Origin: an uncultured Candidatus Saccharibacteria bacterium
Lineage (GTDB): Bacteria; Patescibacteriota; Saccharimonadia; Saccharimonadales; Saccharimonadaceae
Assembly (NCBI GenBank): GCA_937859515.1
Contig: CALMAK010000021.1
Location: 62,001 to 126,000, forward strand
Direction: 5' to 3'
DNA length: 64,000 nt
Notes under the pieces: generated by a model
Seen by the model: the letters and a program-made list of their open reading frames with translations, nothing else
The model's database searches: none
Told to the model about the DNA's origin: nothing
Part shown: in pieces, positions 10,446-16,476 of the stretch
How the letters are laid out: each line of letters begins with the position of its first letter
Position numbering within the stretch: the first letter of the stretch is position 1
Position numbers and translations under genes: made by a program

Positions 10446-11800
10446 GTGAATTGATGACTAATACAAAGGAACGCAAGCTATGGTTCGACGGCCCAAACTA
10501 CACTGCCGACGCAGTGATCATTGACCCCGAAGCCGAAAGAATCTTTCTTATCAGGCGCGGCGATACAGGGCAATGGGCGCTACCTGGCGGCTTTGTTGAC
10601 CCAGGAGACGATTCACCATATGACGCAGCAGTTCGTGAAGCAAAAGAAGAAGGCAACCTTGCGCTCTTTGGTTCTGCCCCTCTTATCTTTCGTGGTATTG
10701 TTGACGACCCTCGCAACAGTGAGGACGCGTGGATAGAGACAAGTGCCTACCTGTTTACAGCAACCCACACTGATACAGGAAAAGCAGGCGATGATGCTGT
10801 CGATGTTGCCTGGCCGCGACTTGACGAGCTAACACCAGAGAGCCTCTATGCCTCACATGCTTGCATTATCGAGCGTGCGCTTGACCATCTAAAGGGTCAA
10901 CAATTATTCGACACTTTTGTCTCCCCCGATACAGCGACTCGTATTGATGCCGGGCATATGGAATATAACAAATCAATTTGCGAGAAAGATGGACGCGCAG
11001 TTTTTGCTAAGCAGCATGCATTTGAACGCTTTGACGATATCGAACGAGCCAATCGATCATATTACTACCTCGAAAAAGAAGCTTTTACAATGGCACACCT
11101 TAGGCAGTATGGTTTTGATTATGTACCAGATTCATCAGCCCTTTATGGTGACACGCTTGCTATGAATGCTCTGCAAGCTAGCGACGGCTGGCAGTGGCGC
11201 GCCGACCCCAAGACGATTGATGCGTATATCGTTGACTCCCTCAAAGCACTCCAAGCGCTGGAGACAATCTCTGTCCCTGCGGACTCATTTGACATTGAGC
11301 CTTCATATGAAAGTTTCATGAAAGAGGGCTGGCAATCGTTTACTGATAAAACACGGTCACAATTAGAGCAGCGTTACATACAGTTCCTCCCACGCCTTGA
11401 TGAAGCGTCCCAAGAAACTGCCCATGAGATGATGGCAACACTCGATACGCTGCAGAGAGCCGCGGCGATCCCCCACATCCCGTCAGAATTCGTCTTTTGC
11501 CACCATGATATGCGTCAATCAAATCTTGCTTGGCACCCACAGCATGGTAGCAAGCTTGTCGACTGGAGTTGGGCGGGATTAGGTGAGCCGAATAGCGACA
11601 GTACGAGCCTTCTTATTGACCTTCATAAAAGTGGCCATGATATCAGTGATTACCACGACCACATCAACCCACACCATTGCCTTACCCTGATGGGATTTTG
11701 GCTTGGCCACAGCACCTGGCCGCACCGCGGTAATGATACCGTGCGGTTCCAACAGTTCTTGTCAGCACTCAGTGCTTACGAAGTCCTTAAAGCCCTATAA
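10442..11800 (+). CDS. Fusion of a Nudix hydrolase and an APH-type kinase
   Basis: The 452-residue protein joins two domains. Residues about 15-150 are a Nudix domain with LPGGFVDPGDD and VREAKEEGNL; the REUxEExGU half is intact, though the first glutamate is an aspartate. Residues about 165-452 resemble aminoglycoside/choline kinase-like phosphotransferases, with FCHHDMRQSN (catalytic aspartate and Mg-binding asparagine) and LVDWSWAGLGEPNSD. It is coupled to pncB by ATGA. A plausible job is recycling ADP-ribose and phosphorylating a nucleoside or pentose in NAD salvage, but neither substrate is shown by sequence. The two domains are continuous in one frame. Confidence 0.85.
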   Translation: MSELMTNTKERKLWFDGPNYTADAVIIDPEAERIFLIRRGDTGQWALPGGFVDPGDDSPYDAAVREAKEEGNLALFGSAPLIFRGIVDDPRNSEDAWIETSAYLFTATHTDTGKAGDDAVDVAWPRLDELTPESLYASHACIIERALDHLKGQQLFDTFVSPDTATRIDAGHMEYNKSICEKDGRAVFAKQHAFERFDDIERANRSYYYLEKEAFTMAHLRQYGFDYVPDSSALYGDTLAMNALQASDGWQWRADPKTIDAYIVDSLKALQALETISVPADSFDIEPSYESFMKEGWQSFTDKTRSQLEQRYIQFLPRLDEASQETAHEMMATLDTLQRAAAIPHIPSEFVFCHHDMRQSNLAWHPQHGSKLVDWSWAGLGEPNSDSTSLLIDLHKSGHDISDYHDHINPHHCLTLMGFWLGHSTWPHRGNDTVRFQQFLSALSAYEVLKAL

Positions 11801-12781
11801 TCGTTCCAGTGTAAAAGACGAGCCCTGTCCGCTATGACGCTCGTAGTTAAGTATGTAGCCATATGTATCGGCTAATTGCTTAGCAATTGAAAGACCTAAA
11901 CCATGTCCAGAGGCCTCCGTGCGTGTACGGGCATTATCGGCACGATAAAAACGTTCGAAGATATGTGGTTGGTCTTTCTTACTGATACCAATTCCCTGGT
12001 CGATGACCGTCACTTTTAGTGACCGGCCATTCGTCCGTACAAGCACGTTTACCTGAGATTCTTCCGGCGAGTATTTTATCGCGTTATCAAGAAGAATCGT
12101 TAGGATTTGCCTGACAATACCCGGATGAACCTTCGCCTGCTGCGAGGGTGCATCAACGACGATGGTGGTAGCTTTCTTGTCGGCAAGCGGCTGCACGCGA
12201 GACACGATATCGTCCATAAACGCAGTAAGCTGCACTTCCTCCAATACATCACTCTGTTGGCCTGCCTTGGCAAGATTGAGTAAGGTATCTGCAAGATCAC
12301 GGAGTTTCTCCGTCTCAATAATCGTACGACGAAAAACATCGCGTGCCTTTTCCTCGGTAATCTTTGGTTTACGCAAGGCAACTTCATTGCTGGTCTGTAG
12401 TGCCGTTAACGGCGTGCGCAACTCGTGACTCGCATCACTGACAAACTGTGCCTGCCTTTCCATTGCTTCCTCAATCGGACGAAGCGTTCGCCGTGCCAAA
12501 TAATAACTCAGCCCTGCGCCGCCGGCTGCCACAAGGACATTAATAATAGCCAGTGATCCGAGGATCGATAGGCGCGTTCGCCTGTCGCGCTCTGCAATAC
12601 GGTCTTCGGTCTCGTTGGGTAACGTACTTACCTTCTCGCCTGGTCGTTGTGGCGGCAAAGGACGATCAAGTTGTACGGAGGTAATAAAATAAATGACCGC
12701 GCTAAAAAGCAGTGACATCGTCATAATAATGCCAAAATAGCTTAACGCCAGCCGCCACGTCCTGTCGTTATTTTTTTTCAT
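11795..12781 (-). CDS. Sensor histidine kinase
   Basis: The 328-residue protein has two membrane helices (about 10-32 and 70-92) around a short outside loop of about 35 residues, then the phospho-acceptor H-box SHELRTPL, the N-box LLDNAIKYSPEES, and DQGIGISK with GHGLGLSIAKQ of the ATP lid. The small loop leaves little room for a ligand-binding domain, so it may sense the membrane or a partner. It overlaps the response regulator start by four bases (ATGA), so they form a coupled pair. It converges on the Nudix-kinase gene with a six-base overlap of the ends. Confidence 0.95.
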   Translation of the reverse strand: MKKNNDRTWRLALSYFGIIMTMSLLFSAVIYFITSVQLDRPLPPQRPGEKVSTLPNETEDRIAERDRRTRLSILGSLAIINVLVAAGGAGLSYYLARRTLRPIEEAMERQAQFVSDASHELRTPLTALQTSNEVALRKPKITEEKARDVFRRTIIETEKLRDLADTLLNLAKAGQQSDVLEEVQLTAFMDDIVSRVQPLADKKATTIVVDAPSQQAKVHPGIVRQILTILLDNAIKYSPEESQVNVLVRTNGRSLKVTVIDQGIGISKKDQPHIFERFYRADNARTRTEASGHGLGLSIAKQLADTYGYILNYERHSGQGSSFTLERL

Positions 12782-13455
12782 TCGCCACGCTCCTCAATTT
12801 TATAGCCAAAACCTGGCACGGTGTGGATGAGCTTTGCCCTGAACGGCTTATCGACCTTGCGGCGGACAAACATGACAAATTGCTCTACTGTATTGGGTAA
12901 AATATCGGCATCAAAATCCCAGACATGGCTGATAAAACTTTCTTTTGAGAGCACCTTGCCGTGATTTCTCATCATGTACTCCAGTACCGCATATTCTTTG
13001 CTCGTCAGATCAATGGTCGTATCATCGCGCTGAACGCGCTTCGTGCTTGGATCAAGCGTCAAATCGCCGACCCTGAGGACCTCAGCCTGCTTTTCATTGG
13101 GACGGCGCAGGAGGGCACGGATTCGCGCCAGCAGTACATCAAAACTAAACGGCTTGGCAAGATAATCATCAGCACCCGTGTCAAGTCCTTGCACAATATC
13201 ACGTTCTTGGTCCTTAGCGGTCAGCATCAAAATCGGTGTGGTGTTGCCCTCGCTGCGCAACATTTGACACACCTCATAGCCATTCATTTCAGGCATCATC
13301 ACGTCCAGAATAATCACATCATAATTATCTGCCGCTGCCGTCCGATACCCCTCATCACCATCATAGGCGGTATCAACAGCGTATGACTCATCTTCCAGCC
13401 CTTCTTTCAGTGCGTCCGAAATTGCTTGGTCATCTTCGACAATCAATACCTTCAT
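12778..13455 (-). CDS. OmpR/PhoB-family response regulator
   Basis: The 225-residue protein starts MKVLIVEDDQAISDAL. The receiver has the phospho-accepting aspartate in VIILDVMMPEMNGYEV, the switch threonine in LMLTAKD and the lysine in DDYLAKPFS. The C-terminal winged helix ends in VDKPFRAKLIHTVPGFGYKI. The start at 13455 is supported by TATACT exactly six bases upstream, suggesting a leaderless mRNA. A longer open frame upstream has no ribosome binding site. Target sites may be the 11-bp direct repeats between the MarR gene and the VTC operon. Confidence 0.94.
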   Translation of the reverse strand: MKVLIVEDDQAISDALKEGLEDESYAVDTAYDGDEGYRTAAADNYDVIILDVMMPEMNGYEVCQMLRSEGNTTPILMLTAKDQERDIVQGLDTGADDYLAKPFSFDVLLARIRALLRRPNEKQAEVLRVGDLTLDPSTKRVQRDDTTIDLTSKEYAVLEYMMRNHGKVLSKESFISHVWDFDADILPNTVEQFVMFVRRKVDKPFRAKLIHTVPGFGYKIEERGE

Positions 13456-13469
13456 ATACGTAGTATACC

Positions 13470-13736
13470 TCAGACAATGGTGAATGCCCCGTGTGCCTCC
13501 GGCCATAGTTGTCGCATAATGTGCTGGCCTTTGCGTGTTAGGCGTACCCACAGTCCGTCAAGACTACTGTCTATCGCAACAAGTCCTTTGCTCTTCAGCC
13601 GCTCGATAATTGTCAAAATATGCTGCCGCGACATGCCCAACTGCTGTGCCAGTGTGCGCGTATCATCCTCGCCATCTTCGTGCACTTGCTGTAAGACAAT
13701 TGCCTCGTTCGGTGTTAGTTGCGATGGTTGGTTCAT
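13470..13736 (-). CDS. MarR-like winged-helix regulator
   Basis: The 88-residue protein has a winged helix: LTPNEAIVLQQV, then TRTLAQQLGMSRQHILTIIERL as recognition region, then a wing GLVAIDSSLDGLWVRLTRKG. It is shorter than usual MarR proteins (about 140) because the outer dimerisation helices are mostly missing. AAAGGGG lies shortly before the ATG. It is the first gene before the response regulator and kinase, 14 bases upstream of the former, and may add a second input to this operon. Confidence 0.8.
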   Translation of the reverse strand: MNQPSQLTPNEAIVLQQVHEDGEDDTRTLAQQLGMSRQHILTIIERLKSKGLVAIDSSLDGLWVRLTRKGQHIMRQLWPEAHGAFTIV

Positions 13737-13770: not shown

Positions 13771-13861
13771 AGTATACGAGGATTGGTCTGTAAAAATACT
13801 GTAAAACCCAGCCTGACACGAAAGATACTTATACAGCAAATCTACAGAACCCGCGTAGTAT
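13771..13861. promoter_or_regulatory. Divergent promoter region with PhoB-like direct repeats
   Basis: Two pairs of direct repeats have 11-bp spacing. CTGTAAA (13788-13794) is repeated exactly at 13799-13805, and TACAG (13832-13836) is repeated at 13843-13847. Each pair, read as TACAG toward its gene, stands 8-11 bases before a -10 box: TATACT for the MarR operon (13771-13776, reverse strand) and TAGTAT for the VTC operon (13856-13861). Direct repeats of 7 bp with 4-bp gaps in place of a -35 box are the known layout for activation by PhoB-type regulators. Confidence 0.65.
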
Positions 13862-13902
13862 CCTCTGGACAGACAACAAAACGTAATCCAAGGAGAATAC
13901 AT

Positions 13903-14622
13903 GTGGCAATAGAAATATTTAATCGTCAGGAGCTGAAATTCGTCGTATCACAGACGCAGTACGAAGTAATCCTGCCGAGCATTCGCGAGCATATGCGGCT
14001 CGACAGGCATAATGCGGATGGTCAGCCATATCGACTCTACAATCTCTATATCGACACGGCTGATCGGGCGCTGATCCGCCATAGCATGAGCAAGCCGACG
14101 GTCTATAAGGAAAAGATTCGGATTCGCTCGTACCAACCACTGACACCTGATAGTCTGGTATTTTTGGAAGTCAAAAAAAGATACAAAAAGATTACAAACA
14201 AGCGTCGTACAAAGATACCGCTGAGTGATGCGCTCGCATTTATCCAGACAGGCACACTACCAAATCTCCACGGTTATATGAACCCGCAGGTTATCAGTGA
14301 ATTTGCCGTGATGCTTCAAGAACACTACTATCAGCCAACGACATACATCTGTTATGATCGTATGGCATTCCATGCACGGGACAAGGCGAGCGATCTACGC
14401 ATGACGTTTGATACCAACCTCGTCTCACAGCAATACGGAACGTCGGACAAGCAGCGCCTACTTGCGGCAGACAAGCTAATCATGGAAGTTAAATCCACTA
14501 CCAATATGCCACTATGGCTGGTGGAGCTTCTCGATAAACACCACATTTATAAGCAAAGTTTCTCAAAGTACGGCACAGAACACATGATGGCATTGCAGGC
14601 GAGTGAGGTAGTGTATGCTTGA
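13903..14622 (+). CDS. VTC-domain protein, probable polyphosphate polymerase
   Basis: The 239-residue protein starts at GTG (VAIEIFNRQELKF), seven bases after AGGAG; a longer open frame upstream crosses the regulatory region. It has the CYTH-like tunnel fold of VTC domains: RQELKFVV, YRLYNLYIDT, KEKIRIRSY, FLEVKKRY, LIMEVKST and SFSKYG, supplying the arginines, lysines and glutamate that line the tunnel in yeast Vtc4. Vtc4 polymerises phosphate from ATP at a membrane. The adjacent DUF4956 membrane protein overlaps by eight bases and is the common bacterial partner. The name is inferred from family and context. Confidence 0.87.
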   Translation: MAIEIFNRQELKFVVSQTQYEVILPSIREHMRLDRHNADGQPYRLYNLYIDTADRALIRHSMSKPTVYKEKIRIRSYQPLTPDSLVFLEVKKRYKKITNKRRTKIPLSDALAFIQTGTLPNLHGYMNPQVISEFAVMLQEHYYQPTTYICYDRMAFHARDKASDLRMTFDTNLVSQQYGTSDKQRLLAADKLIMEVKSTTNMPLWLVELLDKHHIYKQSFSKYGTEHMMALQASEVVYA

Positions 14623-15295
14623 TTCACTATTCACCACCAGCACGGGCAGTGAAGCAGTTCTAGGCTCGGGCATCATGGCGATTGTCGCCGGGCTTGTGAC
14701 GGGACTCGTCATCAGTTGGCTCTACATTCGCACGAATCGCCATAGTTATTCGCAGAGCCTGGCGTGGACACTGGTCTTTATGCCAGCAGTCATCGGGCCA
14801 GTTATTGCGCTCGTTGGATCGAACATCGCCGCCGCATTCAGCCTGGCAGGTATCTTTACCATCATACGGTTTCGCAGTGCGCCAGGCAGTGCGCGTGATA
14901 TCTTATTGATACTCTTTAGTGTCGGTGCAGGGCTCGCCTACGGACTGGGGCTGTATCTCTATGGTGCAATATTTGCTATCCTGATGGTCGCTGCGCAGCT
15001 CGTACTCTACGCAACGAACTACGGTCAAGGCAAGAACAGCCAGCTCCAGCTAAGGATTGTCGCGCCAGAATCAAGCAACAACGAAGAAACGTTCGCCAGC
15101 GTGCTCGAAAAACACACCGCTTCGTTTGCACTCAACCGCATCGGTACGCGCGATCTCGGCAGTGTCTACGAGCTGGTATACGACATCGAATTGCCAAAAG
15201 ACGGCGAGCGAAAAACCCTGATTGACGACCTACGCCGACACAATAGCAATATGAATATCACCATTTCTAACCGCGCAAGCGCGAGTATGTTTTAA
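14615..15295 (+). CDS. DUF4956 membrane protein, partner of the VTC protein
   Basis: The 226-residue protein has about four membrane segments in its first 150 residues, with the DUF4956 signature AFSLAGIFTIIRFRSAPGSA. The C-terminal 80 residues form a soluble domain. Genes of this family are often linked to VTC-domain genes in bacteria, and the protein may anchor the polymerase or form the membrane path for the polymer; this is inference. The ATG overlaps the end of the VTC gene by eight bases. Confidence 0.87.
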   Translation: MLDSLFTTSTGSEAVLGSGIMAIVAGLVTGLVISWLYIRTNRHSYSQSLAWTLVFMPAVIGPVIALVGSNIAAAFSLAGIFTIIRFRSAPGSARDILLILFSVGAGLAYGLGLYLYGAIFAILMVAAQLVLYATNYGQGKNSQLQLRIVAPESSNNEETFASVLEKHTASFALNRIGTRDLGSVYELVYDIELPKDGERKTLIDDLRRHNSNMNITISNRASASMF

Positions 15296-15315: not shown

Positions 15316-16476
15316 ATGAACAAATCAAAGAAAGCACTCATTATCATCGTTGCAATCATCGTACTGGCAGGTACGGGCGGCGCGGCTGCCTGGTATTACT
15401 ACGCCAATACCACCGACACTGAGCAGGCAAATACAGCATCAACCAGCAATGCCACGAATATTGCCGCTGACGACAGCGATGATATCGACTGGGCAAGCCT
15501 ACCGACCACGAACGTCACCCTGACCGACGAAGGCTATGCGGTCACTGCGGCAGGCACATATGTGCTATCAGGTAGCTCGACAGGTCAAGTCACCATCAAC
15601 ACCGACAGCTACGTACGCCTCGTCCTTGACGGTGTGACGATCAAGAGTAGCAAGGGCGCCGCGATCTACATCGAGAACGCCAAAAAGACTGTCGTACAGC
15701 TGGCTGACGGGTCGACGAATACGGTCGAAGACGCTGCGACACGTAGTGACGAGGATATCGACGGCGCGATCTATTCGTCGGATGATCTGGTCATCAACGG
15801 CAGCGGTAGTCTGACAGTCACGGCTAACTTCGCTGATGGTATCGTCGGCAAGGACGATCTATGGATCACGGCGGGTAATGTCACAGTGACAAGCGTTGAC
15901 GATGGCATCCGCGGCAAAGATTCACTCAATATCAGCGGCGGTACGATCGTGATCAATGCCAAGGGTGACGGTATGAAAGCCAGCAACGACACCGACCTCG
16001 GCAAGGGCCAACTGGTTATCGCAGGTGGCGATATCACCATCAGCTCGGGTGATGACGCCATCAAGGCCGAGCAGAAGATTTCGATCACAGGTGGTACGAT
16101 CAATATCAAGACCAGCGTCGAAGGTATCGAGGCACCTGTCATCGTGATTGATGACGGTACTATCACACTCTACGCCAGTGATGACGGCATCAATGCCTCA
16201 GCTTCAGCTATCATCACCAGTGGACTGAGCATCACTATCAACGGCGGTACGATGACTATCGAGGTTGGTCCCGGTGACACCGACGCTATCGACAGCAACG
16301 GCGACCTGTATGTCAACGGGGGTACGATCAGCATCACCGCGCAAGTTTCATCATTTGACTTCGACGGCAATGGTGCGATCAATGGCGGCACCGTTACGGT
16401 CAACGGACAGAGAATCACCGAGATGCCACAGCAGATGATGGGTGGTGGTGGTATGGGTGGTGGACCACAGCGCTAG
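15316..16476 (+). CDS. Membrane-anchored beta-helix carbohydrate-binding protein (Cthe_2159-like)
   Basis: The 386-residue protein has a basic N-terminus and one membrane helix (about 7-29), a serine/threonine-rich linker, then many short repeats of the type ISGGTIxI / GDGMKA / DDGI, the pattern of a right-handed parallel beta-helix. It ends in a glycine/methionine-rich tail (MMGGGGMGGG). This matches the Cthe_2159-type family of polysaccharide-binding, calcium-binding surface proteins that accompany VTC and DUF4956 genes. A strong AAAGGAGG site precedes the ATG. It is the last gene of the operon before a large terminator. Role in polyphosphate handling or attachment is unknown. Confidence 0.85.
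   Translation: MNKSKKALIIIVAIIVLAGTGGAAAWYYYANTTDTEQANTASTSNATNIAADDSDDIDWASLPTTNVTLTDEGYAVTAAGTYVLSGSSTGQVTINTDSYVRLVLDGVTIKSSKGAAIYIENAKKTVVQLADGSTNTVEDAATRSDEDIDGAIYSSDDLVINGSGSLTVTANFADGIVGKDDLWITAGNVTVTSVDDGIRGKDSLNISGGTIVINAKGDGMKASNDTDLGKGQLVIAGGDITISSGDDAIKAEQKISITGGTINIKTSVEGIEAPVIVIDDGTITLYASDDGINASASAIITSGLSITINGGTMTIEVGPGDTDAIDSNGDLYVNGGTISITAQVSSFDFDGNGAINGGTVTVNGQRITEMPQQMMGGGGMGGGPQR

Follow-up and report, generated by a model that had tools for sequence, protein, structure and literature searches.

The site bound by the streptococcal response regulator CiaR is a direct repeat, NTTAAG-N5-TTTAAG, located 10 bp before the -10 element (PMC3091779). The CiaRH system is autoregulated and has htrA among its targets (PMC8317062). 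In yeast, Arg264 and Arg266 of Vtc4 are needed for polyphosphate synthesis (PMC8749416). We found no paper linking a bacterial VTC operon to a regulator. The window analyzed here (the whole stretch of DNA, 64 kb in length) originates from a 907-kb genome of a Saccharibacteria (TM7) member, and a 166-bp gap between the genes for a winged-helix protein and a VTC-domain protein holds two divergent repeats (Table 1). Gene regulation is little charted in Patescibacteria, whose genomes of 0.5–1.2 Mb often contain only one or two OmpR-family regulators; genetic tools for members of this group have been reported (PMC10633639). Based on sequence comparison, we propose that an OmpR-family regulator controls both operons flanking the gap, a reading to which we assign a probability of about 0.78.

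An earlier note on this DNA had described CTGTAAA-N4-CTGTAAA at 13788–13805 and TACAG-N6-TACAG at 13832–13847 as direct repeats with an 11-bp period, each placed 8–11 bases upstream of a -10 box and one facing each operon. Both repeats are present with this period, they face outwards, and their distances to the -10 elements are 11 and 8 bp, respectively. The minus-strand sequence of the first repeat is TTTACAG-N4-TTTACAG-N11-TATACT, while the second reads TACAG-N6-TACAG-N8-TAGTAT on the plus strand. Since both have the same TACAG-N6-TACAG orientation towards their own promoter, they represent one type of site. No conventional sigma-70 promoter with -35 and -10 elements was found in the intergenic region. 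A two-component operon does lie to the left of the repeats as the note had stated, although the adjacent gene itself encodes the 88-aa winged-helix protein and not the response regulator (RR).

Table 1. Coding sequences, repeats and candidate promoter elements of the locus, with the htrA-associated site of the same genome.
Feature	Position	Strand	Basis or remark
Sensor histidine kinase (HK)	11795–12781	-	Pfam PF00512 and PF02518 (HisKA + HATPase_c); by hydropathy, a short external loop between two TM segments
OmpR-family response regulator (RR)	12778–13455	-	Pfam Response_reg + Trans_reg_C
Second -10-like element, TATACT	13462–13467	-	Immediately 5' of the RR start codon; has no box
88-aa MarR-like winged-helix protein (wHTH)	13470–13736	-	PF12802 above cut-off
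-10 box TATACT, wHTH-RR-HK promoter	13771–13776	-	11 bp after the box; sequence and box model
RR-facing box TTACAG-TATTT-TTACAG	13788–13804	-	Score 20.2
VTC-facing box ATACAG-CAAAT-CTACAG	13831–13847	+	Score 7.8, the weaker of the two
-10 candidate TAGTAT, VTC promoter	13856–13861	+	8 bp after the box; sequence
Alternative VTC -10, TATCCT	13859–13864	+	Sequence
VTC-domain protein (polyphosphate polymerase domain)	13903–14622	+	GTG start; PF09359, 9.5e-42
DUF4956 membrane protein, about 4–5 TM segments	14615–15295	+	PF16316; hydropathy
Cthe_2159-family carbohydrate-binding protein, N-terminal membrane anchor	15316–16476	+	PF14262; hydropathy
CiaR-type box TTCAG-N6-TTCAG-N11-TATACT	G000 C20:45256–45288 (L299 about 1500–1534)		Before a membrane-anchored HtrA-type protease

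The leftward operon (wHTH-RR-HK) begins with the winged-helix gene, homologs of which occupy the same position before several orthologous RRs. A winged-helix gene 5' of the RR is seen in the window and in about a third of the orthologous loci (L008, 5685–5954; L105, L106, L108, L110 and L113), and some orthologous loci have a second box between the two genes. The solved structure closest to the window RR is DrrD of T. maritima (1kgs). The closest orthologs of the window RR are found in named Saccharibacteria records, and orthologs within Saccharibacteria share 59–70% identity with it. Viral contigs yielded no related RR. An RR with 54% identity occurs in the actinobacterium Nocardioides pocheonensis (L011, NZ_RJSF01000011.1), where it sits in DNA of 72% GC and lacks the box. 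The known hosts of Saccharibacteria include Actinomycetota. The rightward operon has the order VTC, DUF4956, Cthe_2159. DUF4956 adjoins VTC in all relatives scanned, and the Cthe_2159-family gene is the third gene also in two other genomes (G204 and G013). The second -10-like element before the RR gene is a possible leaderless promoter. Many Saccharibacteria RR genes (L208–L247) have a -10 about 5–10 nt before the start codon, a distance that would imply leaderless transcripts, and the htrA gene of the window genome has its -10 at a similar distance (L299, about 1529–1542).

The same promoter architecture was seen for 26 non-redundant orthologs of the RR, with half-sites TTTAAG, TTTCAG or TTAAAG. 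A 6-mer repeated at a lag of 11 was present in 16 of these 26 promoters, whereas 200 control draws gave 4.7 on average and 10 at most. From the 26 promoters alone, with the window excluded, a weight matrix was built (TTTAAG-N5-TTTAAG-N8..11-TATAAT, hereafter the box model) and used with a score threshold of 13. The RR-facing box obtained the top score in the 64-kb window (second best 13.9). Among the VTC promoters of relatives, a set dominated by one genus and with box and RR counts taken partly from incomplete genomes, 68 of 87 scored at least 13. Control lags of 8, 9, 10, 12, 13, and 14 gave 14, 20, 41, 38, 7, and 2 of the 87 promoters, the raised counts at 10 and 12 probably being due to AT-rich runs, and the opposite strand gave 13 while the DNA a kilobase upstream gave 1 of 84. 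Paralogous RR promoters reached the threshold in 27 of 40 cases (0–5 at other lags). For htrA, the box was found in 18 of 29 genomes, i.e., the window genome and 17 of 28 relatives, against 0–3 at other lags and none on the opposite strand or far upstream. A trivial hit rate of the model is unlikely, since none of the 13 usable RR promoters from other phyla (L043 and L084 not counted) reached a score of 13. In the relatives, the box and its spacing to the -10 equal those of the CiaR site (PMC3091779).

The presence of the box also follows that of the regulator. Of the 65 genomes with an OmpR-family RR, 60 have the VTC box, as do 8 of the 22 genomes in which no such RR was found (n = 87; Fisher p = 4e-7). 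The VTC tree contains 12 independent pairs that differ in RR presence; on average, the box followed RR presence in 5.7 of these and ran counter to it in 0.1 (median p = 0.031). Some of the eight genomes with a VTC box and no RR found are incomplete (for example, G415, 58%, and G387, 76%), while G173, G378, G143, and G299 are not. Several nearly complete genomes (G002, G092, G132, G289, and others) have the VTC operon and neither an OmpR-family RR nor a VTC box, and have apparently lost regulator and site together. What this comparison of genomes shows is that the sites exist, are conserved and go with the presence of an RR. As regards the earlier proposal, OmpR-family boxes, autoregulation and joint control of the VTC operon by such a regulator appear well supported by conservation and by the link to RR presence.

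Lack of conservation of the repeats in related genomes with the same gene order had been named as the observation that would speak against this proposal. The repeats are in fact kept. In many genomes of a second genus, the kinase and RR genes run divergently to VTC-DUF4956; where checked, Cthe_2159 follows. Across the 18 loci scanned with the layout HK, RR / VTC, DUF4956, three of which are near-identical, the VTC-facing box scored at least 13 in all 18. A box facing each side was seen in 13 of them, including one (L195) in which a single palindromic site is read both ways. The RRs of this genus fall in another clade than the window RR in a tree with other RRs as the only outgroups. Either the pairing of regulator and VTC has therefore had more than one origin, or one RR has taken the place of another.

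The half-site of the window, TTACAG, differs from the family consensus. In two genomes with sisters of the window RR (G011 and G116), the third base of the half-site is A (TTAAAG), and the VTC box of G116, TTAAAG-CGAAA-ATAAAG before TATAAT, matches the RR box of G011, TTAAAG-CGAAA-TTAAAG. The recognition helices of the RRs in the window, G011 and G116 contain a methionine at a position that is mostly threonine in the other orthologs. It is suggestive that the half-site seems to drift in step with the recognition helix across these three genomes. The VTC gene of G116 (C6:22786–23425; L205) is split into two frames with a good box still before it, which could reflect either an assembly error or decay.

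The VTC protein scores 143.6 bits against PF09359 (cut-off 23). A profile search matched yeast Vtc4 (3g3q, E = 1e-20), whereas the single protein sequence gave no match when searched against the PDB. The active-site residues of Vtc4 are kept in the window protein (K12, R73, R75, E89, K91, K100, R153, R166, E195, S221, and K222), and the catalytic residues, the counterparts of Arg264 and Arg266 among them, are invariant in 12 bacterial sequences aligned to Vtc4. PF09359 is the sole domain of the 239-aa protein, which has no SPX domain. The product of the enzyme would be polyphosphate. The membrane part that is built into Vtc4 may here come from DUF4956; we found nothing in the literature that joins the VTC domain and DUF4956.

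Further high-scoring boxes lie near orthologous RRs (L008, 5165, 8626, and 11238; L009, 5357; L010, 3756). The genes behind such boxes encode small membrane proteins, one DUF5666 protein and others, and are candidate members of the regulon. Given the small membrane proteins and the DUF5666 protein, the envelope theme appears again. With htrA in the regulon, envelope or secretion stress becomes a likelier signal than phosphate starvation. Among the literature matches listed, nothing was found on regulon boxes in Saccharibacteria.

We envisage two divergent promoters in the gap, in each of which a direct-repeat box lies about one helical turn before the -10 and replaces the -35. The boxes would be bound directly by a dimer of an OmpR-family RR, most likely the 12778–13455 protein phosphorylated by its kinase. 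On each box the dimer would recruit RNA polymerase and in this way raise expression of its own operon, wHTH-RR-HK, and of the VTC-DUF4956-Cthe_2159 operon. We assume activation rather than repression because the box replaces the -35.

The boxes might instead be bound mainly by the paralogous RR encoded on contig C14, or by both RRs, with VTC belonging to a shared core regulon and the adjacency of the local RR being incidental. The promoter of the paralog, TACAG-N6-CTCAG-N8-TATACT, has the same TACAG half-site, its helix NTVEVYIKYLRKKL is nearer to that of CiaR (VVEVYVSKVRKKL) than is the helix of the window RR (NTVEQFVMFVRRKV), and VTC boxes are found without an adjacent RR in other genomes. 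Yet the full TTACAG-TTACAG is present in the promoter of the window RR and not in that of the paralog, RRs of a different lineage lie divergently beside VTC in the second genus, and the VTC box of G116, which has a sister RR, resembles the RR box of the sister clade. We regard control by the paralog as possible, though somewhat doubtful. It is unlikely that only the RR-facing box is real, serving autoregulation, and that the VTC-facing repeat of the window genome is decayed or coincidental. This repeat does score 7.8 against a threshold of 13, the first base of its half-sites is A in one and C in the other rather than T, and neither TAGTAT nor TATCCT makes a good -10. On the other hand, it repeats TACAG exactly at an 11-bp period and is correctly placed and oriented, and in relatives 68 of 87 VTC promoters contain the box. 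Two exact copies of TACAG-N6-TACAG are present in the window where 0.10 is expected, a count reached by 1 of 100 shuffles, and they are the only ones in the 907-kb genome (reversed control pattern, 1). A genome-wide count of 2 is ordinary by itself; the occurrence of both copies in one 166-bp gap, in opposite orientation and each before a -10, is unusual.

Both repeats could also be a generic Saccharibacteria promoter element, i.e., a variant -35 without a dedicated regulator, as the region has no -35 consensus and TTTAAG-like words are common in AT-rich genomes. The rarity of the complete element makes this improbable: the box with TATACT is found at only three places in the genome (the window RR operon, the paralogous RR and htrA; reversed control 0), and a pattern search of the whole genome for the box with TATAAT gave no occurrence. 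The VTC boxes are moreover mostly missing where no OmpR-family RR was found. Looser sites (TWMAG-N6-YWMAG) number 29 in the genome, and only those of the paralogous RR promoter and the RR-facing site of the window have a -10 matching 5/6 in range; a 4/6 match is seen for a few others, including the VTC-facing site. Finally, the earlier note took the repeats to be PhoB-like, which would make this a PhoB/PhoR-type phosphate-starvation system controlling polyphosphate synthesis. An OmpR-family regulator, a VTC polyphosphate polymerase domain as target and a loose resemblance between CTGTAAA and the PhoB box CTGTCAT fit such a system. The label is not borne out by the proteins: the RR scores 200.2 bits where the PhoB model TIGR02154 has its cut-off at 296.2, and the HK falls under the PhoR cut-offs. 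PhoU (PF01895) is absent from all 31 genomes searched (that of the window and 30 related ones), while 13 of 14 controls were positive. We rejected the repeats as PhoB boxes on these scores and the absence of PhoU. In promoter orientation the half-sites of the window belong to a CiaR-type series, TTTAAG/TTTCAG/TTACAG, and not to CTGTCAT; the orthologous boxes are TTTAAG or TTTCAG, and the regulon otherwise contains RR genes and htrA. Phosphate control of this kind is thus highly improbable.

Returning to control of both operons by the OmpR-family regulator, the data suggest that polyphosphate production is coupled with a stress response of the cell surface and not with phosphate starvation. The box would point to the signal, envelope stress and perhaps contact with the host cell, and would offer a way into the regulation of a bacterial VTC operon. 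Being conserved and predictive of the targets of an OmpR-family regulator, it also defines a testable regulon in Patescibacteria. We would give even odds to a wider scenario, in which Saccharibacteria have an old, small CiaR-like stress regulon (RR, htrA, and the VTC operon) with polyphosphate synthesis as one branch of an envelope-stress response. At least two RR lineages would then have come to lie divergently beside VTC with one box each way, and the half-site would have drifted jointly in the RR and VTC promoters (TTTAAG, TTAAAG, TTACAG) together with the recognition helix.

Compared with known systems, the locus shares with PhoBR an OmpR-family regulator, 11-bp direct repeats in place of the -35 and possibly a phosphorus-related target; it differs in that the RR and HK are below the curated PhoB and PhoR cut-offs, PhoU is missing, the box has another sequence and htrA is in the regulon. 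The VTC protein shares the catalytic domain family PF09359 and the active-site residues with yeast Vtc4, but is a single 239-aa domain with no SPX or membrane part, DUF4956 being a separate gene. The likeness to CiaRH goes further. The RR, VTC and htrA promoters of relatives carry TTTAAG-N5-TTTAAG about 10 bp before the -10, of which the window boxes are a TTACAG variant spaced 11 and 8 bp from the -10. Boxes upstream of the wHTH-RR-HK operon and of orthologous RRs suggest autoregulation, and htrA would likewise be a target, as judged from the box with TATACT before it in the window genome and the box in 17 of 28 relatives. The CiaR recognition helix VVEVYVSKVRKKL is similar to the Saccharibacteria helices NTVEVYIKYLRKKL and NYVEVYISYLRKKL. 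Unlike CiaRH, the system belongs to another phylum, has the VTC polyphosphate operon among its putative targets and has a winged-helix gene opening the RR operon. By box pattern and predicted targets, the locus therefore seems better described as belonging to a conserved, CiaR-like regulon of Saccharibacteria with htrA and the VTC operon among its putative members.
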